Shown: piece after piece, positions 17,243 to 26,869 of the stretch | How the letters are laid out: every line of letters begins with the position of its first letter | Numbering within the stretch: the stretch's first letter is position 1 | DNA from: a virus | Length of the DNA: 34,272 nt | IMG/VR virus record: IMGVR_UViG_3300009152_000117 | Span: 1 to 34,272 of that record | Reading direction: 5' to 3' (one strand) | Notes under the pieces: generated by a model | Told to the model about the DNA's origin: nothing | The model's database searches: none | What the model saw: the letters and a program-made list of their open reading frames with translations, nothing else | Translations under genes and position numbers: made by a program

Positions 17243-17938
17243 ATGGCTAAAGATACATTCTATTTCTCACACGATTATAACGCTAGGCAAGATGAGAAAA
17301 TTAAACGACTTATCCGTAAACACGGGATGTTAGGCTATGGTATTTTTTGGTCAATAATTGAAGATTTGTACAATAATACGAACGTATTACGAACGGATTA
17401 CGAAGGTATAGCTTACGAATTACGAGTTGAAACTAACACCTTAATATCAATAATAAATGACTTCGATTTGTTCTGTTTTGAAGGTGAAATGTTTGGTAGT
17501 GAATCTATCGAAAAGAGGCTAAAGGAACGTAACGAAAAAAGTAAAAAAGCAATAGATTCTATAAATGCTAGATGGGAGAAACATAGACTGAGTAAAGGAA
17601 GTGATACGAACGTATTACAAACGTATTACGATAGTAATACTATAAAGGAAAGGAAAGGAAAGGAAATAAAGGAAAGTATAGATGGGCGAAAATTAAAATT
17701 TTCTTCCACCCTAAAACCTTTTTTAGAAATTTACGGTAAAAAGTTATTGAATGAATTTTACGCCTACTGGACAGAACCAACCCAATCTGGAAATAAATTT
17801 AAAAAAGAACTAGAACGAACTTGGGATGTGAAGCGAAGATTGGATGTATGGAGTAGAAATTCATCTAAATTTGAAAAACCAATAATATCGGCACCATCTT
17901 TGAAGCCATTTATAAAACCTGACCTATCAAACTTTTAA
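17243..17938 (+). CDS. Replication initiator / helicase loader-like protein (DUF4373 type)
   Basis: The 231-residue protein starts with FYFSHDYNARQDEKIKRLIRKHG and YGIFWSIIEDLYNN, the Lin1244/Lin1753-like (DUF4373) N-terminal winged helix found in phage and plasmid replication proteins. A basic hinge (KERKGKEIKES), encoded by a purine-rich AAGG-repeat stretch, precedes a C-terminal block KLLNEFYAYWTEP...TWDVKRRLDVWSR resembling DnaD/DnaB-loader ends. It stands four bases before the DnaB gene, so it probably loads that helicase at the phage origin. The origin itself was not located. Confidence 0.8.
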   Translation: MAKDTFYFSHDYNARQDEKIKRLIRKHGMLGYGIFWSIIEDLYNNTNVLRTDYEGIAYELRVETNTLISIINDFDLFCFEGEMFGSESIEKRLKERNEKSKKAIDSINARWEKHRLSKGSDTNVLQTYYDSNTIKERKGKEIKESIDGRKLKFSSTLKPFLEIYGKKLLNEFYAYWTEPTQSGNKFKKELERTWDVKRRLDVWSRNSSKFEKPIISAPSLKPFIKPDLSNF

Positions 17939-17941
17939 AAA

Positions 17942-19282
17942 ATGGAAGTAGAAAAATCAATAATCGGCTCAATCATTTTAGACAAAAATGCAATGTCGGA
18001 GGTATCAGACTTTTTAAAGCCCGAAATGTTTGTTGATCCCGCTTTAAAAACGATTTATTCAGTTTGTTACAGAATGGCACTTTTAAGCGATCCAATCGAC
18101 TTAGTTACACTAACACACCAACTAAGGGTAGATAGTTCCTTAGAATCGATAGGAGGGGCTTATTTTGTAACATCCTTGACAGATAGATTAGTTTCAGTTG
18201 CGAATATTTCATTTTACGGTAGAATTGTGCAAGAAAGATACCTACTTCGGGAGGTCGCCAAAATTGCTAAATTAACAGAACTTTTAACTTTAGAAACAGA
18301 TGCCGACTGTTTTGAAATTTTAGAGGGATTAGATAGAAAGATTTACGACCTTACAAAAGATAGTTCTACTAGGCAAGTACAATCAATTAATGACCTATAT
18401 CAAAAGCAAATTAAATCGATTGACAATAGGAAGGAAGGCATTTTAAGCGGGATAATGACAGGGCTTAGATGTGTTGACTCTGTTTTGATGGGAATAAAAG
18501 CTCAAAACTTAGTAATAATTGCTGCAAGGCCTGGACAAGGGAAGACGGCTTTCGCTTTATCGGCAGCACGGAATATCTCAATGGGTAATATTCCAGTTGG
18601 TTTTTTGTCGATGGAGATGTCAAGTGAAGAACTATGCAACAGATTCACTGCTTTAAATTCTAGTATCCCGCTGGACTATCTCACAAATAAAACCGTAAAA
18701 GGGGCTTACTTTGACAGAATGATGGAGGCTACTGTGCAAGTAAAGAATACAAAACTATACATTGATGATTCACCTTCCTTGAGTGTGATGCAAGTACGAA
18801 ATAAGGCACGTAAAATGATTATAAAGTACGGGATTAAGTTATTGATAGTTGATTATTTAGGTTTAATGAAGCCTGAAGGAGGTAAGAACAGAACGAAGGA
18901 AAATGAGGTAAGCGAAATTTCAGCGGGGTTAAAATCTATCGCCAAAGAGTTAAATATACCAATTATAGCCCTTTCTCAATTGAGTAGGAAGGTAGAGGAG
19001 CGACCAAGTAAAGAGCCACAACTTAGCGACCTAAGAGATAGCGGAAGTATTGAGCAAGATGCTGATATTGTTATTTTCTTGATGCGACCTGAGTATTATT
19101 CAATGAATGTAGAAGTGCCAGGAGAAACAAACATCTACATTGCTAAGCACCGAAATGGAAGCACTGGAAGTGTAAAGGCAAAGTTCACCCCTGAGCTAAC
19201 TAAATTTTCAGACATCCAAACGGAGTACCAAACTGATTATTCAGTATATGGTAGTGATGTCGAAAATAAAGATTTATTTTAG
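17942..19282 (+). CDS. dnaB: Replicative DNA helicase, DnaB family
   Basis: The 446-residue protein has the DnaB N-terminal domain (EKSIIGSIILDKNAMSEV...DPIDLVTLTHQL) and the RecA-like motor. Walker A is ARPGQGKTAFAL (about 197-208), followed by GFLSMEMSSEEL. Walker B is LLIVDYLGLM (about 300-309), followed by IIALSQLSRKVEERPSKEP and LRDSGSIEQDADIVIFL. It unwinds DNA at the replication fork. Its length matches family members. The TAG stop directly adjoins a sigma-54-like element that begins the first cassette region. Confidence 0.95.
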   Translation: MEVEKSIIGSIILDKNAMSEVSDFLKPEMFVDPALKTIYSVCYRMALLSDPIDLVTLTHQLRVDSSLESIGGAYFVTSLTDRLVSVANISFYGRIVQERYLLREVAKIAKLTELLTLETDADCFEILEGLDRKIYDLTKDSSTRQVQSINDLYQKQIKSIDNRKEGILSGIMTGLRCVDSVLMGIKAQNLVIIAARPGQGKTAFALSAARNISMGNIPVGFLSMEMSSEELCNRFTALNSSIPLDYLTNKTVKGAYFDRMMEATVQVKNTKLYIDDSPSLSVMQVRNKARKMIIKYGIKLLIVDYLGLMKPEGGKNRTKENEVSEISAGLKSIAKELNIPIIALSQLSRKVEERPSKEPQLSDLRDSGSIEQDADIVIFLMRPEYYSMNVEVPGETNIYIAKHRNGSTGSVKAKFTPELTKFSDIQTEYQTDYSVYGSDVENKDLF

Positions 19283-19300
19283 TTTGGCACGTATATTGTA
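19283..19300 (+). promoter_or_regulatory. Sigma-54-like element before the first island
   Basis: TTTGGCACG-TATA-TTGTA follows the dnaB stop. It probably drove the DnaA-C-like gene (20591) before cassettes were inserted, and would now read through island I. Just downstream is a palindrome, ATTCGCGAAT (19312-19321), and a nine-codon ORF (19350-19379) that ends at the first attC-like site. The gap 19301-19492 has no larger gene. Confidence 0.55.
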
Positions 19301-19378
19301 TGATGATAGTCGATTCGCGAATTGCGAAGTAACCATATAACTTGACAAATGGATTTAAAAAGTAAATTTATTACTTGA

Positions 19379-19476
19379 CACTAACGTTTTGCAGCTTTAA
19401 GAAGTGGCTGCCTAAAAATTACTTCATTTGACAAACAATGCTTATGGCAGCCATTTTTTAAAGGTGCTGTTAGCGG
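19379..19476 (+). repeat. attC-like hairpin 1
   Basis: Left arm CACTAAC-GTTTT-GCAGCTTTAAGAAG, right arm TTTTTTAAAGGTGCTGTTAGCGG. The central stem TGGCTGCC (19405-19412) pairs perfectly with GGCAGCCA (19446-19453). The left side carries extra unpaired bases after TAAC, as attC sites do between R and L boxes. There is no gene in the loop. Confidence 0.6.
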
Positions 19477-19492
19477 TAGTTATTTTAAGATT

Positions 19493-19810
19493 ATGGAAAT
19501 AAAAATGCCTTTAAGAAGTGCTTCGATTGATGCAACAATAGAAGATTTTAATGAAAAAGCGGAAGTTTATGTTTTTTCGGACACACACGATTTGTTAGTT
19601 TATAAAAACAATGAAGAAGAAATGGACGATACTACTATTTTTTCAATGTGGATTAATTGCGGAAAAGACAAACAAAAAGCAATAATGTTTGATGTTGAAA
19701 TTGATGAGCTTGAAGAATTTGCAAATGCAATTTTAAAACAAATAGAGATTGTCCGCAAAAACTATTCAGAACAAATTAAATTTCAAACGGATAAAGGGTG
19801 TCGTGTATAA
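19493..19810 (+). CDS. Cassette protein of unknown function (105 aa)
   Basis: The 105-residue acidic protein begins MEIKMPLRSASIDATIEDFNE and contains YVFSDTHDLLVYKNNEEE, TIFSMWINCG and a C-terminal helix VEIDELEEFANAILKQIEIV. It looks like a small alpha/beta protein without membrane segments. It lies wholly between the start box GTTAGCGGT and the end box ACCGCTAAC of one cassette. Cassette genes of this type are mostly orphan proteins. I do not recognise a family. Confidence 0.6.
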   Translation: MEIKMPLRSASIDATIEDFNEKAEVYVFSDTHDLLVYKNNEEEMDDTTIFSMWINCGKDKQKAIMFDVEIDELEEFANAILKQIEIVRKNYSEQIKFQTDKGCRV

Positions 19811-19812
19811 TT

Positions 19813-20191
19813 ACCGCTAACGTTTTGCAAATAGGCTTAGGTTTTTAAACAGTAAATGAATGAACGAATCAATTACAAAGGAAATAGTAAAAGAAGCAAT
19901 GAGAATTACATCAAAAGAAGTAACACCGCCATTGTGTGTAAGGTTAGGATTAGTTAAAAAAGAAAATAAAATGGAAACAATTTTAGATGCTGTAAAAATG
20001 GTAGCCGTTAATTTTGCGGAATGGTTATCAAAAAACGAATGGAAGAAAAAGGCAAAAACTCACCCGAAACATATAGGTAAATATTGGTCGGATATTCATT
20101 GTGAGTATAAGACTATTAATGATTTATACGAAATGTTTTTGGTTGACGAGCGCAGGCGTTTAAAAACTTGAGCCTATTTGCTGTTATAAGC
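19813..20191 (+). repeat. attC-like inverted repeat 2, with an ORF in the loop
   Basis: GCAAATAGGCT (19827-19837) pairs with AGCCTATTTGC (20171-20181), and TTTTTAAA (19842-19849) with TTTAAAAA (20159-20166). The outer boxes are GCTAAC-GTTTT and CTGTTATAAGC as in the other sites. The arms are 375 bases apart and enclose a 103-aa ORF, far larger than ordinary attC loops. It may be a normal site whose loop gained a gene. Confidence 0.6.
19860..20171 (+). CDS. Protein of unknown function inside an attC-like loop (103 aa)
   Basis: The 103-residue basic protein (MNESITKEIVKEAMRITSKE...) contains TPPLCVRLGLVKKENK, NFAEWLSKNEWKKKAKTHP and TINDLYEMFLVDERRRLKT. It looks mostly helical. The ORF fills the loop between two inverted-repeat arms and its last codons lie within the right arm. 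The start at 19860 is the first in frame after the left arm; Met near residue 38 is an alternative. I do not recognise a family. Confidence 0.55.
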   Translation: MNESITKEIVKEAMRITSKEVTPPLCVRLGLVKKENKMETILDAVKMVAVNFAEWLSKNEWKKKAKTHPKHIGKYWSDIHCEYKTINDLYEMFLVDERRRLKT

Positions 20192-20227
20192 TGGGGCTTT
20201 GGCCGTGTGTCGGCTTGTGTGGCACTT

Positions 20228-20365
20228 GCTTATAACGTTTTGGCGGTTGGCGTTCGTTGCCGACTTTGGAACACAAAACTTTAACTTTAAAAATAAATTT
20301 GATATGGAACACAAAACTTCAATTAACCAAGAAAACGGCAATGACGCTAACCGCTTGTTAGCGGC
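20228..20365 (+). repeat. attC-like hairpin 3
   Basis: GCTTATAAC-GTTTT-GGCGGTTGGCGTTCGTTGCCG on the left pairs, with few mismatches, with CGGCAATGACGCTAACCGC (20336-20354) and the GTTAGCGGC end box (20357-20365). The loop contains GGAACACAAAACTT twice (about 20268 and 20306). The second copy includes the start region of the next ORF, so gene and hairpin overlap. Confidence 0.6.
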
Positions 20366-20492
20366 TGCTGCTTCTTGGTGGAACGGATTAAGCGTATTTA
20401 AAAGAGAATTATACATTGGTAGGCATTATGCTGATGACACTCCGACAAATGATAAAATTAATACACTTTACAAAATGTATAATGATTGGTAA
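20304..20492 (+). CDS. Cassette protein of unknown function (62 aa)
   Basis: I choose the ATG at 20304 (62 aa). Longer versions would start inside the left arm of the hairpin and translate it. The protein starts MEHKTSINQENGNDANRLLA, then AAAASWWNGLSVFKRELYIG and TPTNDKINTLYKMYNDW. The SWWNGLS helix followed by a charged C-terminus resembles short phage or cassette proteins of unknown role. Its first 20 codons lie within the hairpin, so gene and recombination site share sequence. Confidence 0.5.
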   Translation: MEHKTSINQENGNDANRLLAAAASWWNGLSVFKRELYIGRHYADDTPTNDKINTLYKMYNDW

Positions 20493-20525
20493 AATGAAGA
20501 TTTGGAGCAGGTCAGCAGTTGCAGC

Positions 20526-20582
20526 TAACACGTGAGTTACGACAATTGCCCAATATAAAAATAGGGGGAAACAAATTAAAAA
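20526..20582 (+). repeat. 57-bp direct repeat, copy 1 (end of island I)
   Basis: It begins TAACACGTGAGTTACG and ends in an A-rich leader just before the ATG of the next phage gene. It differs from copy 2 (26091-26147) at two of 57 positions. It carries the likely ribosome-binding region (AGGGGG about eleven bases into the A-rich part). One frame is open and runs into the downstream gene. Confidence 0.85.
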
Positions 20583-20590
20583 GAAATAAA

Positions 20591-21010
20591 ATGACAGAAA
20601 TATCAATAATAATCGAAGATATACTTTCTCTAGACGTGGCTAAATTCCTTAAAATTAGCGGGTATAATCCAATCGTAAAGCCATTAACCATCACCAAGTC
20701 TCAGATGGTACTTCATGAAGTGTTATCAGTTATATGCCGAAAGTACAATTTCGAGCAAAGTGATATAATGGGATTCTCACACAAAGCAAAACTTGTAAGG
20801 GTGAGATATATTTTCTTTTACGTATACAAGACTCTATACCCTTATACTACATGGGTGCTTCTCGCTGAATACATGAACAAAAGAAACCATGCTACCATCA
20901 TTCACGGGTTCAACTATATTGATGAAAGGATAAACGGGGCATTCTCCCATACCAAAGAGAACAGGGAGTTTAAGGACGAAGTAAATTCAATAATCAATCT
21001 GTTCAAATGA
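20591..21010 (+). CDS. DnaA C-terminal-domain-like protein
   Basis: I start at the ATG at 20591 (139 aa); an in-frame extension would translate the 57-bp repeat. Residues about 45-115 look like DnaA domain IV: VLSVICRKYNFEQSDIMG, then AKLVRVRYIFFYVYKTL, and the signature KRNHATIIHGFNYI, which in DnaA reads DNA through its helix-turn-helix. There is no ATPase part. It may bind DnaA boxes to help phage replication or to control host DnaA. It is the first phage gene after island I and overlaps the next gene by ATGA. Confidence 0.75.
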   Translation: MTEISIIIEDILSLDVAKFLKISGYNPIVKPLTITKSQMVLHEVLSVICRKYNFEQSDIMGFSHKAKLVRVRYIFFYVYKTLYPYTTWVLLAEYMNKRNHATIIHGFNYIDERINGAFSHTKENREFKDEVNSIINLFK

Positions 21011-21381
21011 AGGAAACTAAAGATATAAAAACCTCGGAATTAAAAAAGAATGCACAGGTAGTATTTAATAAGTTCATTCGTGATAGAGATAAGGAATGTC
21101 AATGTATTTCGTGCGGGGCTTCGGTTCAACAAGCGGGACACTTCTACTCTGCTGGGAAACACAACTCAATGAGATTCAACGAGGATAACGTACACGGGCA
21201 ATGTATCAAATGCAACTATTACGAACACGGGAACCTAATCAAGTACAGAATCGGACTAATAGAAAAGATAGGACTTTCAAGGGTTGAAAGGCTTGATTAT
21301 TTAGCAAGTGATAAGTCTGCATCAAAAAACGATAGATTCTTTTATTTAGAGATTTTGGAAAAGTACGGGGTAAAAAAATAA
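21007..21381 (+). CDS. NinG/Rap-like HNH recombination protein
   Basis: The 124-residue protein shows FNKFIRDRDKECQCISCG with a CxxC pair (Cys33/Cys36), QAGHFYSAGKHNSMRF with the conserved His, and NVHGQCIKCNYYEHGN with the second Cys pair. This is the NinG family, the Rap-type nucleases that process recombination branch points. The protein is shorter than lambda NinG but keeps the zinc/HNH core. It probably works with the ERF/exonuclease set. Confidence 0.85.
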   Translation: MKETKDIKTSELKKNAQVVFNKFIRDRDKECQCISCGASVQQAGHFYSAGKHNSMRFNEDNVHGQCIKCNYYEHGNLIKYRIGLIEKIGLSRVERLDYLASDKSASKNDRFFYLEILEKYGVKK

Positions 21382-21382
21382 A

Positions 21383-21414
21383 TTTGGTAATATCAAAACA
21401 GATAACTAATTTTG
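21383..21414 (+). promoter_or_regulatory. Bacteroidota-type promoter (TTTG-N20-TAATTTTG)
   Basis: TTTG (21383-21386) and TAATTTTG (21407-21414) are 20 bases apart. The ATG at 21420 follows after five bases (TTGCA), almost the same as the 6146 site (TTGAA). It begins one base after the NinG stop codon. Confidence 0.65.
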
Positions 21415-21419
21415 TTGCA

Positions 21420-21956
21420 ATGGATAGCTATCAGGTAATAAATGGACTAGCCAATAACAAAAAGCTAAAAGGAATTGCTTATAAAATAGCTGGTCGGCTA
21501 GGTGACGATTTATGGCAGACTTTATTTCTTATTCTGTGCGATATGCCAAAGTTTAGAATAATTGAACTTTATAAAAATAAATCAATCGAATACTACTGCA
21601 TCAATATCCTTTCAAACGAGTTCCATAATAAAAAGTCCTTATTCTCAAAGGAAACAAGACATCAAATGTATGATGAGGATATCGAAGACTATAAACTACC
21701 ATCATGCGATTACGAAATAGAGAGAGAGAACATTGCCAAGATGGAACGGATAGACTTACAAGAGAATCCTATTTATAGGTTCTTCGCTCAGAGGGTTACT
21801 CAGGATAATTTCTATAAAGTGGAGTTGTTGAGAAGGTGGGCAGAAGGAGAAAGTTATAGGCAGATATCAAAAAGAACAAATATTCCGATGCGTTCCATAG
21901 CCCACGAAATACAAAAGACAATAAATGAACTTAAAGAGCAATGCTTATCTATTTAG
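21420..21956 (+). CDS. Helix-turn-helix regulator, sigma-factor-like
   Basis: I start at the ATG at 21420 (178 aa), five bases after a -7 box; a TTG further upstream lies inside the promoter. The N-terminal part has LGDDLWQTLFLILCDMPKF and IEYYCINILSNEFHNKKS, like region 2 of sigma-70-type proteins. The C-terminal part has LLRRWAEGESYRQISKRTNIPMRSIAHEIQKTI, a clear helix-turn-helix like sigma region 4. It may direct late transcription. Promoter recognition is not shown by sequence alone. Confidence 0.6.
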   Translation: MDSYQVINGLANNKKLKGIAYKIAGRLGDDLWQTLFLILCDMPKFRIIELYKNKSIEYYCINILSNEFHNKKSLFSKETRHQMYDEDIEDYKLPSCDYEIERENIAKMERIDLQENPIYRFFAQRVTQDNFYKVELLRRWAEGESYRQISKRTNIPMRSIAHEIQKTINELKEQCLSI

Positions 21957-22165
21957 AAATTATAGGGTTTTGTTTAGGATTGGAAAAATTCATACTCCCA
22001 TTGCTTCGTATTTTGTTTCCTATCTTTAGAAAGTTGGGTAAACCATTTACTTGTGCCCCTTGTCTTTCTTTTTGGGTATGTTTATTTTTCAATCCTTATA
22101 TGGCCTTTTTTTTATATTTTTCAATGTCGATAATTTCACGGGAATATGACCGAAGCAAACTATAA
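21941..22165 (+). CDS. Small membrane protein with CxxC motif (74 aa)
   Basis: The protein is strongly hydrophobic, with segments about 2-28 and 44-64. Between them is KPFTCAPCLSFWVC, carrying Cys38/Cys41 (and Cys46) in a CxxC arrangement typical of small Bacteroidota-phage membrane proteins. It overlaps the regulator gene by 16 bases and the next gene by 20. Function is unknown; redox or metal binding at the membrane is possible. Confidence 0.6.
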   Translation: MLIYLEIIGFCLGLEKFILPLLRILFPIFRKLGKPFTCAPCLSFWVCLFFNPYMAFFLYFSMSIISREYDRSKL

Positions 22166-22370
22166 TACCTTAAAGCATCATAAGCACGTTTACGACTTCT
22201 ATTTACAAGTTCAAACGATTAACACTGCCCATCCATCAATAGGGGCTATCAATGCAGTAATAGTAGATGAAGGAGGGCAAGCGATGAACTTAGGATGCTC
22301 CGGATGTGTGATTGAAGGTCTGAATACTATCTACCAACGATACAAAGAATACGAATCAACCCACTTATAA
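22146..22370 (+). CDS. Small protein of unknown function (74 aa)
   Basis: The 74-residue protein has HHKHVYDFYLQVQTINTAHPS, AVIVDEGGQAMNLGCSGCVIE and a helical end GLNTIYQRYKEYES. The GCSGC motif and the helices suggest a small DNA- or metal-binding protein. It overlaps its upstream neighbour by 20 bases and is one base from the glycosyltransferase. No family recognised. Confidence 0.6.
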   Translation: MTEANYNTLKHHKHVYDFYLQVQTINTAHPSIGAINAVIVDEGGQAMNLGCSGCVIEGLNTIYQRYKEYESTHL

Positions 22371-22371
22371 T

Positions 22372-23157
22372 ATGGCACTAATAGCAATGGCGGTGTATTC
22401 CACCGAAGAAAACAAGAAAGATGATTGTCTCATACGGACACTTGAATCTTTATCAATGACAGTCGATCTTAAAAAGCATCGACTAATTTTATCGATCAAT
22501 GCAGAAACTACCAATACCATGCACTTGGTTAACGACTGGAAAAGACAATGGGGGCATGATGTAGCAATCATTAAAAACTATAAAAATATCGGTACTGCGG
22601 AGGCCATTAACAAATGCTTCAAGTTGCGGGAAGAAAAAGAGAACTGCATCAAAATGGATGATGATGTAGTAATTCATTCAAGCGGATGGATAGAAGTAAT
22701 GGAAGATGCAATAAGGAGAGATTCTACAATAGGAATAATAGGATTAAAAAGAAAGGATTGCATAGAGAATGTGAACCATACGGATAGTTACTACCGATCT
22801 AAACTTATTCAATTACCTCAGGTTCCAGGGGAGAGATGGATTATTGTCGAGGATGTTCACCATGTGATGGGGACTTGCCAAATGTACTCAAGTGCTTTGC
22901 TTGACAAAATAGGCTACCTCTACCAACCCAAGCAGTATGGATGGGACGATGTTCTTGCTTCATCCCGAAGTAGGGCGGTAGGATTTAAAAACTGCTTTCT
23001 GCCTCATGTAGAGATTGACCACATAGATGAAGGGGCTACCCCTTATCAATCGTGGAAGGAGAAACACGCGACACTTGACATTGGCACTATAACCAAACTT
23101 ATGGAAGGATATTCTAGCGGGACAATATCAACCTATTATACACCATTCCATGAATAA
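22372..23157 (+). CDS. GT-A fold glycosyltransferase, family 2-like
   Basis: The 261-residue protein has the GT2 plan: an N-terminal strand-helix with AVYSTEENKKDDCLIRTLES, NYKNIGTAEAINKCFKLREE, and a KMDDDVVIHSSGW block (about 93-105) providing the DxD metal and sugar-nucleotide site. Later come VMGTCQMYSSALLDKIG and YGWDDVLASSRSRA, with an acidic acceptor-side motif (GWDD). It directly precedes a second, different glycosyltransferase. The acceptor could be virion protein, modified DNA or host glycan. Confidence 0.8.
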   Translation: MALIAMAVYSTEENKKDDCLIRTLESLSMTVDLKKHRLILSINAETTNTMHLVNDWKRQWGHDVAIIKNYKNIGTAEAINKCFKLREEKENCIKMDDDVVIHSSGWIEVMEDAIRRDSTIGIIGLKRKDCIENVNHTDSYYRSKLIQLPQVPGERWIIVEDVHHVMGTCQMYSSALLDKIGYLYQPKQYGWDDVLASSRSRAVGFKNCFLPHVEIDHIDEGATPYQSWKEKHATLDIGTITKLMEGYSSGTISTYYTPFHE

Positions 23158-23797
23158 ATTACTAACCACATGCAGTAAAGAAGATTATCACAAGTGTAAA
23201 ATGCTTGAAAAGTCTTTAGAAAAGTATGGATGGGACTTCCACATAATTCTGCATGAGTGGAAAGGGTTTGGTGATAAAATTATTAAAACTTACGAATACC
23301 TAAAAACACATCCTGAGATAACCCATTTCTTTTATACGGATGCTTGGGATAGCCTTGTATTCGATACGATGGAAGCGACTCTTAATAAAATTAAGGATAA
23401 AGATATTATATTGCTGAGTGCAGAAAAGAATTGCTACCCTCACCCATCTAAATCGATACTTTATCCAGAAACAAAAAGCCCGTTTAAATACGTGAATGGG
23501 GGAGGATGGTTTTGTAATTCTTCTATCTTCTGTGCGATGATAGATAAGTACCCTTTAACTTCTATTGATGTAGATCAAGTATGGCTCACTGACTTATATT
23601 TGAATGAACCCGAAATAGTAAGGCTTGACACGGGATGTGAAGTGTTCCAAACTATTGCTTTCTGTGATGAGGATGAGTTTAACTTAGATTCTTTTTCGGG
23701 AAAAGTATGGATAAGAAATAAGGGCACCGATACTTTCCCTACTTTTTTTCACGGCAATGGGCATACACCTATGAATAAATTTAATGAATTAATATGA
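23150..23797 (+). CDS. PLOD-like glycosyltransferase
   Basis: The 215-residue protein resembles the glycosyltransferase domain of PLOD/procollagen-type enzymes. It has FFYTDAWDSLVFD (about 61-73) with the acidic metal site, YVNGGGWFCNSSIF (about 114-127), DVDQVWLTDLYLN and the closing HGNGHTPMN, matching the family's NG/HGN ends. It overlaps the GT2-like gene by eight bases, suggesting that the two act on one product. It is the last gene before island II except for a small, probably hybrid ORF. Confidence 0.75.
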   Translation: MNKLLTTCSKEDYHKCKMLEKSLEKYGWDFHIILHEWKGFGDKIIKTYEYLKTHPEITHFFYTDAWDSLVFDTMEATLNKIKDKDIILLSAEKNCYPHPSKSILYPETKSPFKYVNGGGWFCNSSIFCAMIDKYPLTSIDVDQVWLTDLYLNEPEIVRLDTGCEVFQTIAFCDEDEFNLDSFSGKVWIRNKGTDTFPTFFHGNGHTPMNKFNELI

Positions 23798-24003
23798 CAA
23801 CCGAACACTTTGATGAACACCACAGGCAAGTATTGGATTTATTTGCTGTTAGTAGGCGAAGCGAACAGTTATTTTGCGATTGTGAAATAAAAGGCAGTAT
23901 AATTGCTTATAACGGATTAGAATATGAGAAGTGGCGACCTATAAATTGGCAGCAAACTTCATTAAGTGCCGAAAATTTGAACAAGCGACTAACGATAATA
24001 TGA
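23794..24003 (+). CDS. Small, possibly chimeric protein at the island II border (69 aa)
   Basis: The ORF starts at an ATGA overlap with the glycosyltransferase gene but runs into the first cassette of island II at 23848, where GCTGTTAGTAGGC begins. So roughly the first 18 residues come from phage sequence and the rest (RRSEQLFCDCEIKGSII...) from cassette sequence. The cassette part contains CDCEIKG and NGLEYEKWRPINW. It may be a fusion created by cassette insertion or a cassette gene that lost its own start. No function assigned. Confidence 0.4.
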   Translation: MTTEHFDEHHRQVLDLFAVSRRSEQLFCDCEIKGSIIAYNGLEYEKWRPINWQQTSLSAENLNKRLTII

Positions 24004-24039
24004 ACTCTTAGCCATTTCTTATATTATTTGTTATAAGTC
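23987..24039 (+). repeat. attC-like hairpin 4
   Basis: GACTAAC-G-ATAATAT (to 24001) pairs with ATATTAT (24021-24027) and the end box GTTATAAGTC (24030-24039). At about 53 bases it is one of the shortest sites in the window, and its stem is AT-rich. Confidence 0.45.
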
Positions 24040-24109
24040 TGTTATGTTTTGTAGTAACGAAGTAAGGTTTAAGCTGACAATAATGATACAAAACATAATT
24101 GCGTATAAC
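24030..24109 (+). repeat. ORF-less cassette start with perfect internal hairpin
   Basis: GTTATA...TATAAC boxes enclose TTATGTTTTGTA (24042-24053) and its perfect reverse complement TACAAAACATAA (24087-24098), with a 33-base loop. No ORF of useful length is present. It could be an empty cassette or a regulatory hairpin. Confidence 0.55.
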
Positions 24110-24251
24110 GTTTTGCGGCTTTGTGTCTGTTTGCCCCTTGCACAAAGTTTCAAGTTTTAGATAAATTTATAGGCAAAATAATAGCAGCTACACGATGCCA
24201 GCCTATGCGGTTGCGTTGATTCGCTGGTATTGTGTAGCTGCTGTTATAAGC
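24101..24251 (+). repeat. attC-like hairpin 5
   Basis: It starts GCGTATAAC-GTTTT-GCGGC and ends AGCTGCTGTTATAAGC. Inside, AGCAGCTACAC (24183-24193) pairs perfectly with GTGTAGCTGCT (24232-24242), and TTTGCC with GGCAAA. The internal hairpin is probably part of the loop structure. The gap 24004-24284 (281 bases) holds no gene beyond a 22-codon ORF; it is filled by sites 4 and 5. Confidence 0.55.
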
Positions 24252-24284
24252 TGGTGCGATTAATTAACTAAAAATATAAATATA

Positions 24285-24473
24285 ATGAAAGACGAAAAAG
24301 AATTAACATTGATGCCTTACGGGAACGGAAACGGTTTATTAATTTATTGTAAAAATTGCGGTAGTGAATTTGAAGAAACTGCTGGAGGTTATTATGATCC
24401 AATAAAATACGAAAGCGATAAGTATGACAGAGAGTGTAGAAGATGCTTAACTGAATTAGGAATGTTCTCGTAG
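24285..24473 (+). CDS. Cassette-encoded zinc-ribbon protein (62 aa)
   Basis: The 62-residue protein has two Cys pairs, Cys22-x2-Cys25 (YCKNCG) and Cys51-x2-Cys54 (RECRRC), typical of a small zinc ribbon, in an acidic context (GSEFEETAGG, KYESDKYD). It lies alone inside a cassette whose start and end boxes are perfect complements. Zinc ribbons of this size bind nucleic acid or partner proteins. The precise role is unknown. Confidence 0.65.
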   Translation: MKDEKELTLMPYGNGNGLLIYCKNCGSEFEETAGGYYDPIKYESDKYDRECRRCLTELGMFS

Positions 24474-24478
24474 CACTT

Positions 24479-24551
24479 GCTTATAACGTTTTGCAGATTG
24501 GCGATAGTTGGCTTTTTTCAAGCCAATTTTGCCAATCTGCTGTGTGTAGTC
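24479..24551 (+). repeat. attC-like hairpin 6
   Basis: GCAGATTGGC (24493-24502) pairs perfectly with GCCAATCTGC (24531-24540), and TTGGCTT (24508-24514) with AAGCCAA (24520-24526), with unpaired bases only on the left side. The left box is GCTTATAAC-GTTTT. The right box is degenerate (CTGTGTGTAGTC instead of CTGTTA). Short length and asymmetry match attC sites well. Confidence 0.65.
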
Positions 24552-24611
24552 TGGTTTTATTTAAAGTTTTTTTTTGAGGTGGGGGTGCGTTGGACATTTA
24601 AATTTTAAAAT

Positions 24612-25700
24612 ATGATAGTAGTAAGTTTATTTAATGGAATGAATACAGGCAGACAAGCCTTAGAAAATCGTGGTTACAAGGTTACAAAATACTATTCAAG
24701 TGAATTGAAACCATACGCTATTGAATTAACGCAATTTCATTTTCCTGATACAATACAAGTAGGAGATGTAACGAAGTGGAGAGAATGGGATATTGATTGG
24801 GAAAGTGTTAATATAATTTTAAGCGGAAGCCCTTGCCAAGATTTAAGCATTGCCGGGAAACGAAAAGGAATAAATGGAGCGAAAAGTAGTTTGTTTTGGG
24901 TATTTATTGAAATATTGGAACACGTTAGAAGCCTTAACCCTAATGTAATATTTTTTCAAGAAAATGTTGGAAGTGCAAATAAAAAGGATATTGGAATTAT
25001 GAGCCGTGCAATGGGGCTTTATCCTGTAAGAATTAATAGTAGTTTGGTAACGGCACAATTAAGGGATAGATATTACTGGACAAACATAAGAACGAAGCAA
25101 ACAATGTTTGATGTGGTTACTGATATTCCACAACCAGAGGATAGAAAAATAATGTTTAAAGACATTTTAACCGATGGTTATACGGATCGAGATAAAGCAA
25201 GGGCAATTTTAGAAAGCGAAGAACGATTAAATACCGATTTAGGTAAAATGCACGATAGATATGCGAAGTTTGGAAATGTAGTTTACTTAGAAAAATATAA
25301 GGATTTAATAAGTATTGAAAATGCAAGATTGAAAGTAAAAACCAATACAACCGATGGCTACCAATATGCTACTGAAAATGATTGTTTGAACTTATCATTT
25401 CCTACAAGCAAAACCAGGAGAGGAAGAATAACGAAAGGCAAAACACCTTGTTTATTGCAAGGGAACGAACCACTATTTGCATTTACAGGCGATAATATTA
25501 GACCATTAAATAAAATTGAACTATGCAGATTACAAGGTTTCCCTGATGATTATTGCGATATATTGACAAGGAATAAAGCAGCGAGTTTATTAGGCGATGG
25601 ATGGACTTTACCGATTGTAGAGCATTTTTTTACCTTTTTAACTTTTGAAAAAAGTTTAGAGAGCGTGGGCAAAAAAACTTTAAATAAAACTTGCCACTAA
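24612..25700 (+). CDS. DNA cytosine-5 methyltransferase (DNMT3-like), cassette cargo
   Basis: The 362-residue enzyme transfers a methyl group from SAM to cytosine C5. Motifs in order: I, SLFNGMNTG (5-13); IV, SGSPCQDLS with catalytic Cys about 75; VI, ENVG about 118-121; VIII, QLRDRYYW about 146-153; IX, RPLNKIELCRLQGFP about 297-311; X, LLGDGWTLPIVEHFF near 327-341. The overall look (AGKRKGINGAKSSLFW) is DNMT3-like. The target-recognition region lies between VIII and IX. It is orphan here, without a restriction enzyme, so protection of phage DNA from host restriction is likely. Its stop overlaps attC-like site 7. Confidence 0.9.
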   Translation: MIVVSLFNGMNTGRQALENRGYKVTKYYSSELKPYAIELTQFHFPDTIQVGDVTKWREWDIDWESVNIILSGSPCQDLSIAGKRKGINGAKSSLFWVFIEILEHVRSLNPNVIFFQENVGSANKKDIGIMSRAMGLYPVRINSSLVTAQLRDRYYWTNIRTKQTMFDVVTDIPQPEDRKIMFKDILTDGYTDRDKARAILESEERLNTDLGKMHDRYAKFGNVVYLEKYKDLISIENARLKVKTNTTDGYQYATENDCLNLSFPTSKTRRGRITKGKTPCLLQGNEPLFAFTGDNIRPLNKIELCRLQGFPDDYCDILTRNKAASLLGDGWTLPIVEHFFTFLTFEKSLESVGKKTLNKTCH

Positions 25701-25750
25701 CGGTTGGGTATTTGCGCTCGTTTTAATGGCGCAAATACTGTGTTATGCTC
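25694..25750 (+). repeat. attC-like hairpin 7
   Basis: CCACTAAC-GGTTGG-GTATTTGCGC (stem 25708-25717) pairs with GCGCAAATAC (25729-25738), then TGT and GTTATGCTC (25742-25750). The ten-pair stem is perfect. At 57 bases it is close to the classic 59-base element. The left box overlaps the methyltransferase stop codon. Confidence 0.65.
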
Positions 25751-25802
25751 TCGTTTTGCGTGGGTGGGATTAACGAAATTATTAACTTAAATAAATACTA
25801 AA

Positions 25803-26093
25803 ATGGAAATAGAAGAAGTAATTAAAATTTGTAAAGATAGAAATGAATTAAATTTTCTGTTTTCAATTACAAAACAAATAGCCGAAGCAGATAGCATTGG
25901 AGAATGTTATGGATATTGTAGGGAATACAAAACAGAACAATTTAATAATGCCGAAAAACATATACAAGCAGAGGAATATAAGCTAAGAGGATTCAAAGAT
26001 AAATATTGCCAATGGTTAGAGTATGGAGGCATACCTATTTACGAATTGTATCTTTATCAAATTGGTGCGGTGGTAAAGCAAAATGGAGCATAA
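25803..26093 (+). CDS. Cassette protein of unknown function (96 aa)
   Basis: The 96-residue protein is helical and charged: EVIKICKDRNELNFLFSITK, EADSIGECYGYCREYKTEQF, then YKLRGFKDKYCQWLEYGG. It has several Cys residues but no recognised motif. Its stop TAA is part of the end box GAGCATAAC, which exactly mirrors the cassette start GTTATGCTC. That tight fit is one of the strongest cassette signs. Function unknown. Confidence 0.6.
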   Translation: MEIEEVIKICKDRNELNFLFSITKQIAEADSIGECYGYCREYKTEQFNNAEKHIQAEEYKLRGFKDKYCQWLEYGGIPIYELYLYQIGAVVKQNGA

Positions 26094-26147
26094 CACGTGA
26101 GTTACGGCAATTGCCCATTATAAAAATAGGGGGAAACAAATTAAAAA
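26091..26147 (+). repeat. 57-bp direct repeat, copy 2 (end of island II)
   Basis: It matches copy 1 (20526-20582) at 55 of 57 positions and again lies between the last cassette box and the ATG of a phage gene (26156). The two differences in the open frame are one silent (CGA/CGG) and one Asn/Ile. It includes a GGCAATTGCC palindrome. Confidence 0.85.
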
Positions 26148-26155
26148 TTATTAAT

Positions 26156-26869
26156 ATGACAATAGACGAAGTAAGTTACAATTACGGGTTCCGAGACTAT
26201 CAATCTTGGGTTAACGAGTTATTCACAAAGAATGTCGATTTTACTCCTGAGCTTAAAGAATTAAGGGACTGGGTAGAAAAAAATGTTTTCGGATTTGGTG
26301 AGAGGTCGTTCTATTGGCTATGGAAGTTGATAGTTGACGAGATGCCGGCTAATTTTACCTTTTTAGAAATTGGTGTATTTAGGGGTCAGACTCTTGCGCT
26401 TGTGAAATTACTCGCTAAATTAGCGGGAAAAGAATGTATCTGTTACGGTATCACTCCTTTAGATACTACCGATGGCCATTGGGAAAGTAACTATGCTTCC
26501 GACATAAAACTCATACACGACACTTTCAAACTTCCTCAGCCAAAGATAATAGTGGGACTAAGTACGGACTTAACCATCATTGACGAGGCTAAATATTTAT
26601 CACCGATGGATATTGTCTACATTGACGGTGGACATAGTTACGATGTGGTAAAATCTGACATGAGCAATTATCCCCAGCTATCAAGCAAGTTCTTAGTAGT
26701 GGATGACTGCTGTAACGACATACTTATGCCCTGGGGATATTTCGCGGGAATATCATCAGTAACAAAAGCAGTAAACGAATGGGAATCGGAACAAAAAGAC
26801 TTCAAATTACTATTCAATGTAGTACATAATAAATTATATAAAAGAAATGCACCCGACACGAATATTTAA
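26156..26869 (+). CDS. SAM-dependent methyltransferase-like protein
   Basis: I start at the ATG at 26156 (237 aa), which follows the 57-bp leader. A longer in-frame version would translate that repeat. Class I methyltransferase features are FLEIGVFRGQT (about 69-79, SAM loop), PMDIVYIDGGHSYDVVKSDM (about 150-170) and FLVVDDCCND, the pattern of MT_24/cephalosporin-hydroxylase-like enzymes. Such enzymes often act on sugars, which would fit the glycosyltransferases upstream. It overlaps the small terminase gene by 23 bases. Confidence 0.75.
   Translation: MTIDEVSYNYGFRDYQSWVNELFTKNVDFTPELKELRDWVEKNVFGFGERSFYWLWKLIVDEMPANFTFLEIGVFRGQTLALVKLLAKLAGKECICYGITPLDTTDGHWESNYASDIKLIHDTFKLPQPKIIVGLSTDLTIIDEAKYLSPMDIVYIDGGHSYDVVKSDMSNYPQLSSKFLVVDDCCNDILMPWGYFAGISSVTKAVNEWESEQKDFKLLFNVVHNKLYKRNAPDTNI

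Follow-up and report, generated by a model that had tools for sequence, protein, structure and literature searches.

Two arrays in a phage genome

The virus record IMGVR_UViG_3300009152_000117 of IMG/VR, analysed here over its full 34,272 bases (the window), carries genes of phage type, namely portal, terminase, tape-measure, DnaB-type helicase, Erf-like annealing protein and endolysin, and the contig is a tailed phage of Bacteroidota type. Two repeat arrays, 19378-20529 and 23906-26094, are situated between the helicase and terminase genes, with phage genes separating one from the other. Judged from their sequence organisation, both stretches are very probably integron-type cassette arrays of a variant integron system, residing in a phage whose contig lacks an integrase gene. 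The same scheme recurs in both arrays: TAAC-GTTTT-GC, a stem that varies between sites, GC-T-GTTA, a unit usually with a small open reading frame (ORF), and the next TAAC. The motif AACGTTTTG is found five times on the + strand (19383-24485) and not at all on the - strand, and TAACGTTTTGC four times, with no occurrence of the reversed-pattern control. At their ends, 20529 and 26094, both arrays run into AAC and then a 71-bp repeat (20526-20596 and 26091-26161), which in either case extends into the beginning of the phage gene that follows. The features are as follows, where R1 is the covariance model introduced below and units 2, 3 and 4 are delimited from the sequence.

19378..19477, +, attC-like site 1, at the end of array 1 away from attI; boxes CACTAAC (left) and GTTAGCGGT (right); R1 59.2 bits, E 1.8e-13; DNA fold z -3.5
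19469..19821, +, cassette unit 1, GTTAGCGGT...ACCGCTAAC; complementary ends; ORF 19493-19810 (105 aa, function unknown, no Pfam match above cut-off)
19816..20191, +, attC-like site 2, an inverted repeat; structure-aware site-finder score 45
20183..20236, +, cassette unit 2, GTTATAAGC...GCTTATAAC; 54 bp, no ORF
20229..20365, +, attC-like site 3; R1 50.7 bits; loop holds the start codon of ORF 20304-20492
20357..20529, +, cassette unit 3, GTTAGCGGC...GCAGCTAAC; ends complementary in part only
20526..20596, +, attI-like end of array 1, AAC then ACGTGAGTTACGACAATTGCC; 71-bp repeat extending into the 5' region of the phage gene that follows
23906..24038, +, attC-like site 4, degenerate, AATATGAGAAGTGGC / GCCATTTCTTATATT; R1 25.3 bits, E 3e-4; fold z -2.1
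24030..24109, +, cassette unit 4; about 80 bp, no ORF
24102..24251, +, attC-like site 5, a hybrid hairpin; R1 44.8 bits; fold z -5.4
24243..24487, +, cassette unit 5, GTTATAAGC...GCTTATAAC; complementary ends; ORF 24285-24473 (62 aa)
24480..24550, +, attC-like site 6, right box mutated (GTGTGTAG at 24542); R1 42.2 bits; fold z -6.5
24542..25701, +, cassette unit 6; C5 cytosine DNA methyltransferase 24612-25700 (PF00145 E 2.6e-29; TIGR00675 above cut-off)
25694..25750, +, attC-like site 7; R1 32.5 bits; fold z -3.8
25742..26094, +, cassette unit 7, GTTATGCTC...GAGCATAAC; complementary ends; ORF 25803-26093 (96 aa)
26091..26161, +, attI-like end of array 2, AAC then ACGTGAGTTACGGCAATTGCC; 71-bp repeat, 92% identical to 20526-20596

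An earlier sequence-only reading of this DNA had described seven sites in two arrays, with common outer boxes, stems that differ and still pair, and cargo ORFs in one orientation. That description holds: every site and every array ORF is on the + strand. Some of its details are corrected by the list, which gives a mutated right box in site 6, one 54-bp unit without an ORF, and arrays that reach 20529 and 26094. Its claim that most units begin with the reverse complement of the box at their own end is confirmed for GTTAGCGGT/ACCGCTAAC, for GTTATAAGC/GCTTATAAC in two units and for GTTATGCTC/GAGCATAAC. Apart from the methyltransferase, the array ORFs belong to no confident family. An ORF of 103 aa (19860-20171) lies inside the loop of site 2, so that cargo is found both within and between sites, and site 5 takes its left arm from a common type of site and its right arm from a second strong hairpin inside it.

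Conserved structure and the box rule

Many non-Bacteroidota matches obtained with a 16-mer of the site as probe looked like chance, and therefore a structure-aware finder and a covariance model were used instead. On the loci fetched with the 16-mer the finder returned 202 sites, against 8 in the reversed sequences. The covariance model, R1, was trained on 31 short-loop sites of other loci, the window being excluded from training. It matched six of the seven window sites, all on the + strand, with E-values from 3e-4 to 1.8e-13, and its sole further match in the window was weak (E 0.85) and on the - strand. The seventh, site 2, is recognised by its inverted repeat, the arms of which (19827-19850 and 20158-20181) are 92% complementary around a 307-nt loop.

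In the R1 training alignment 96% of the pair cells were standard pairs, compared with 27-49% when the partners were slid as a control, percentages that are inflated because the training sites were partly preselected by stem score. Ten of eleven inner-stem pairs were changed on both sides in the same alignment; the structure is conserved and the sequence is not. When the six R1-matched sites were folded as single-stranded DNA, a check that the sequence-only reading had proposed, five outperformed 198 or more of 200 shuffles, and site 4, the degenerate one, was weaker (z -2.1). As in integrons, where the integrase joins attC, folded as a single strand, to a double-stranded attI, the substrate of recombination would presumably be one folded strand, with a preference as to which.

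A cassette of an integron array begins with bases complementary to its own R'' box, because the two come together in the circle, and the two boxes flanking one hairpin derive from different cassettes. This rule could be examined, like the linkage to an integrase, outside the selection by stem score. Over 85 units from Bacteroidota and virus loci, the agreement of boxes within a unit was 0.69-0.86 at positions 5-9, and the agreement across one site was the same as in random pairs, about 0.3 at the most variable positions. The observed total of 410 compares with 282±10 under permutation, and none of 2000 permutations was as high, which lends statistical support to the earlier proposal that the units once closed as circles at G-TT. 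The boxes deviate from the textbook motif, as had been noted: only 14 of 184 right boxes match GTTRRRY, the consensus being GTTA followed by variable bases. R1 gave no match on four canonical integron loci.

Unit-wise variation among relatives

The nearest relative of the window is the IMG/VR contig 3300027899_000610 (our locus L228), 95.8% identical over 17679-19386. It departs from the window at 19386, in the left box of site 1 (...ACTTGACACTAACG), and carries another hairpin and right box there. Among virus pairs of 97-100% identity, L059 relative to L040, and L061 relative to L044, has a complete hairpin together with its unit inserted between two boxes, and in L021/L063 the units are reordered; further virus pairs have one unit in common at different places. 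Of 113 distinct breakpoints, 44 coincide with TAAC in each of the two sequences compared, where 7.7% would be expected. Gain, loss or reordering of cassettes thus affects whole units, and the junctions lie at the box; the cassette model survives the comparison of relatives by which the sequence-only reading had proposed to refute it.

Integrases of Bacteroidota chromosomes

R1 sites are present in 82 of 297 Bacteroidota genomes, and a tyrosine recombinase adjoins the chromosomal arrays. None of 200 Pseudomonadota genomes contained R1 sites, a result obtained without a positive control inside that phylum and to be read as rarity rather than as proven absence. A strong match to the recombinase, here called INT, co-occurs with sites in 49 of the 297 Bacteroidota genomes (odds ratio 5.5, p 8e-10), and a stricter INT cut raises the association (odds ratio 11.8, p 2e-11). 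The family is not strictly limited to Bacteroidota, since one member was found in a KSB1 genome.

All 28 Bacteroidota-type genomes reached via the 16-mer have matches to TIGR02249 (integron integrase) below its cut-off, the best of them in two pieces with model positions of about 180-238 missing; IntI above the cut-off was found in none of these 28 array-bearing host genomes. INT retains the catalytic residues R-K-H-R-H-Y. INT has 58-65 residues between the K motif and HxxRH, Xer has 72 and IntI 106-107; the IntI insertion is therefore absent from INT. Neither the window, which encodes no INT, nor the related systems, whose INT lacks the insertion, therefore has an adjacent integrase with the IntI-specific additional domain. 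The best PDB match of INT is IntI4 by sequence, and XerA and IntI4 by fold. In a tree of 56 recombinase sequences, IntI (100/99), Xer (100/99) and the viral integrases (98/92) form one clade each; chromosomal and viral INT stand apart from Xer, and IntI is another branch whose exact placement is unresolved.

The INT gene and the array share one contig in many of these genomes. The chromosomal array lies beyond the 3' end of INT with its sites on the opposite strand, and in most loci an attI-like motif (AAC then TAGTATATACC or TTGTTTATATC) is found 63-233 bp beyond the INT stop, the start box of which is fitted by the end box of the nearest cassette, usually perfectly. One Bacteroidota genome (G085, loci L378/L379) has at least 12 sites across more than 30 kb next to INT and is superintegron-like. 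Chromosomal INT (L217, L215, L221) has one to three N-terminal copies of a domain of about 70 aa with the pattern ARWSxTLKxWHIP, which viral INT lacks; its likeness to HARP is weak (E 2.5e-4 in one protein, below cut-off). For genomes G066 and G224 a third geometry was considered and then given up, since their compact recombinases adjoin array remnants with ORFs in chromosomal orientation.

Virus-encoded systems

When IMG/VR was scanned with four compact INTs as queries, relatives were found at no fewer than 185 viral loci. The best 80 of the 185 were kept, with contigs up to 349 kb, and 72 loci were examined. R1 matched 218 sites in 55 of the 72 loci, all of them upstream of INT and on its strand. 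In most of these systems the attI reads AAC|TATTATATATA or a close variant and stands 37-94 bp before the INT start codon, and the boxes of the last cassette match it. An attI therefore stands beside the integrase in chromosomal and viral relatives alike, and the window has attI-like ends with no integrase. The ORFs of the 22 larger viral arrays number 192 in the sense direction against 0 non-overlapping antisense ones. The viral cargo consists mostly of small unknown proteins, those with names including DNA methyltransferases, an RNA ligase and an exonuclease.

Polarity and start codons carried by attC

In the chromosomal arrays the ORF is opposite to the TAACGTTTTGC strand and points away from attI in 27 of 27 oriented units, which places attC at the 3' end of the ORF, as in known integrons. 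In the phage arrays, including the window, the ORF runs along the TAACGTTTTGC strand (50 vs 2) and attC is 5' of the gene. The direction of the ORFs equals that of INT in both kinds of array.

In 42 of 216 phage sites an ATG is in frame through the right arm, across the recombination point and into the cassette, as against 3 of 214 on the other strand; ORF 20304-20492 is the example in the window. From these reading frames it appears that attC may supply the start and N-terminus of the cassette gene. In several phage loci (L011, L016, L039, L040, L299, L316 and others) the attC loops encode leader peptides, MNDNLTTNVSNEAESPAFLVGAV for instance, whose frames continue past the recombination point into differing cassette genes.

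Other features of the window

The attI-like end sequence has just two matches in the window. Scanning IMG/VR for the array-end motif ACGTGAGTTACGACAATTGCC gave no further contig, and the 21-base core of the 71-bp repeat has an exact match on none of the others there. The repeat may be a duplicated phage leader serving as a landing site; no relatives of the gene that follows array 1 came up in a search for them. Just 5' of array 2, at 23840-23855, a right half-site (TATTTGCTGTTAGTAG) stands alone, its left half being unrecognisable; it is probably what is left of a decayed cassette. The genes 22372-23157 and 23150-23797, which lie between the arrays, look, by eye, of glycosyltransferase type. 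An Rfam scan of the window matched no family and a tRNA search of it found none. BLASTN of the array region against isolate phages gave short matches only, for instance methyltransferase similarity, and no syntenic relative.

Interpretation and alternatives

With seven attC-like sites, where two without an integrase suffice, and attI-like ends but no INT in the window, the arrays are assigned as a phage cluster of attC sites lacking an integrase (CALIN) of this Bacteroidota site family. The wider picture, of which we are fairly but less firmly persuaded, is a second integron lineage common to Bacteroidota and their viruses, with integrases devoid of the IntI-specific domain. Many phages would own the entire system as a platform for gene shuffling, in which the cassettes are turned round relative to attC and a start codon and N-terminal leader can come from attC. 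The suspicion of a cassette system outside the textbook is in this respect well founded, in view of the boxes, the INT without IntI insertion and the reversed attC polarity in phages.

In the proposed mechanism one attC hairpin and one small gene together make up a cassette. The window phage would be served by a member of the Bacteroidota INT family of tyrosine recombinases, coming from the host or a co-infecting virus. At the G|TT box of the folded attC hairpin this enzyme would cleave a single strand, and the cassettes would be joined to the attI-like site before a phage gene or to other attC sites. Single genes would be gained, lost and shuffled as the outcome, to the presumed benefit of the phage. 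In related phages the device is complete, with cassettes, attI and compact integrase following one another in one reading direction. The integrase acting on the window phage may be that of the host, of a co-infecting phage, or one encoded by a gene beyond the contig.

Several observations weigh against this account, besides the inflated pairing percentages. No strong INT match was found in 33 of the 82 site-positive Bacteroidota genomes. The array ends of the window (ACGTGAGTTACG) are unlike the commonest viral attI (TATTATATATA), and the window has no INT. In L005/L007 and L007/L080 a unit is common at 98% identity while the flanking hairpins differ, which a simple cassette scheme does not predict; this decoupling of unit and hairpin between phages hints at additional exchange at the box on the right or at hairpin-to-hairpin conversion.

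The best surviving alternative, which we regard as unlikely, is that these are ordinary CALINs, in which standard attC cassettes were acquired from canonical integrons and are moved by classical IntI. Seventeen CALINs have been reported in phages, and attC2 of Polaribacter phage P12002L was recombined with IntI1 (PMC9892861). The sites of P12002L match R1 weakly (23.6 and 25.1 bits), and canonical IntI is thus able to act on at least one likely member of the family. However, R1 finds nothing in the four canonical integron loci, GTTRRRY boxes are the rare case, IntI above the TIGR02249 cut-off is absent from all 28 array-bearing host genomes, and the arrays are linked to a different integrase clade.

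Much less probable is phage mosaicism, in which small genes between similar hairpins would be swapped by annealing recombinases of host or phage with no site-specific enzyme. The phage does encode an Erf-like annealing protein, some pairs have common units but different hairpins, and a few hairpin arm types recur; such swapping leaves unaccounted for the end complementarity within units that is absent across sites, the box-precise insertions and deletions, and the constant geometry of array, attI and integrase. Hairpins that are transposon palindromes, palindromes of the REP type or transcription terminators beside genes are barely credible, for although such hairpins are dispersed in intergenic Bacteroidota DNA and some are terminator-like, here the stems vary between sites with strong covariation, the outer boxes are fixed, the arrays tandem and integrase-linked, no Rfam family matched, and a REP or transposon family, which the sequence-only reading had named as a refutation, is rejected because the stems covary and the ends are not fixed.

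If the Bacteroidota systems do recombine, standard tools overlook an integron lineage with sites in about 28% of the sampled Bacteroidota genomes and an integrase at 185 or more viral loci. The need of the IntI domain for hairpin recombination would become directly testable. Phages would trade single accessory genes cassette by cassette, including DNA methyltransferases that may guard against restriction.

Comparison with known systems

Integrons have been thought nearly absent from Bacteroidota, the only complete one reported by IntegronFinder 2.0 being in Salinibacter ruber (PMC9024848), and an extra domain is held to define IntI (PMC9668308). A classification of tyrosine recombinases found the IntI insertion incompletely conserved in an integron-like subgroup (PMC8138268); this leaves room for insertion-free relatives, and the Bacteroidota INT system is not described there. 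In the open-access literature, preprints being outside the scope, we found no published account of the INT lineage with arrays, of virus-encoded systems or of reversed cassette polarity.

Among recombinases, INT resembles IntI4 of Vibrio cholerae (PDB 2A3V), including the C-terminal IYTHV..SPLD region, but lacks the insertion present in IntI. It has the same simple tyrosine-recombinase core as XerC/XerD and archaeal XerA (NF040815 of NCBIfam, 208-239 bits at a cut-off of 220), whereas Xer forms a separate clade (100/99) and INT is linked to cassette arrays and often bears an extra N-terminal domain. The Treponema chromosomal integrons (PMC3607928) have the same integrase-toward-attI layout but a canonical IntI, and one Treponema genome in our set was above the TIGR02249 cut-off.

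For phages, Qi et al. 2023 (PMC9892861) applied standard attC and IntI models to 10,705 isolate genomes and reported 17 CALINs and 3 complete integrons, the latter in temperate phages with canonical IntI. As they included P12002L, cassettes in a Bacteroidota phage are not new; the earlier suggestion that arrays would make this phage a carrier of cassettes stands as to the arrays, which are real, but not as a first report. The phage CALINs, P12002L among them, are like the window in having attC-hairpin cassettes, DNA methyltransferase cargo and no integrase. In contrast to the canonical IntI of the phage integrons in that survey, the systems described here have a distinct integrase lineage with its own attI at a minimum of 185 viral loci.

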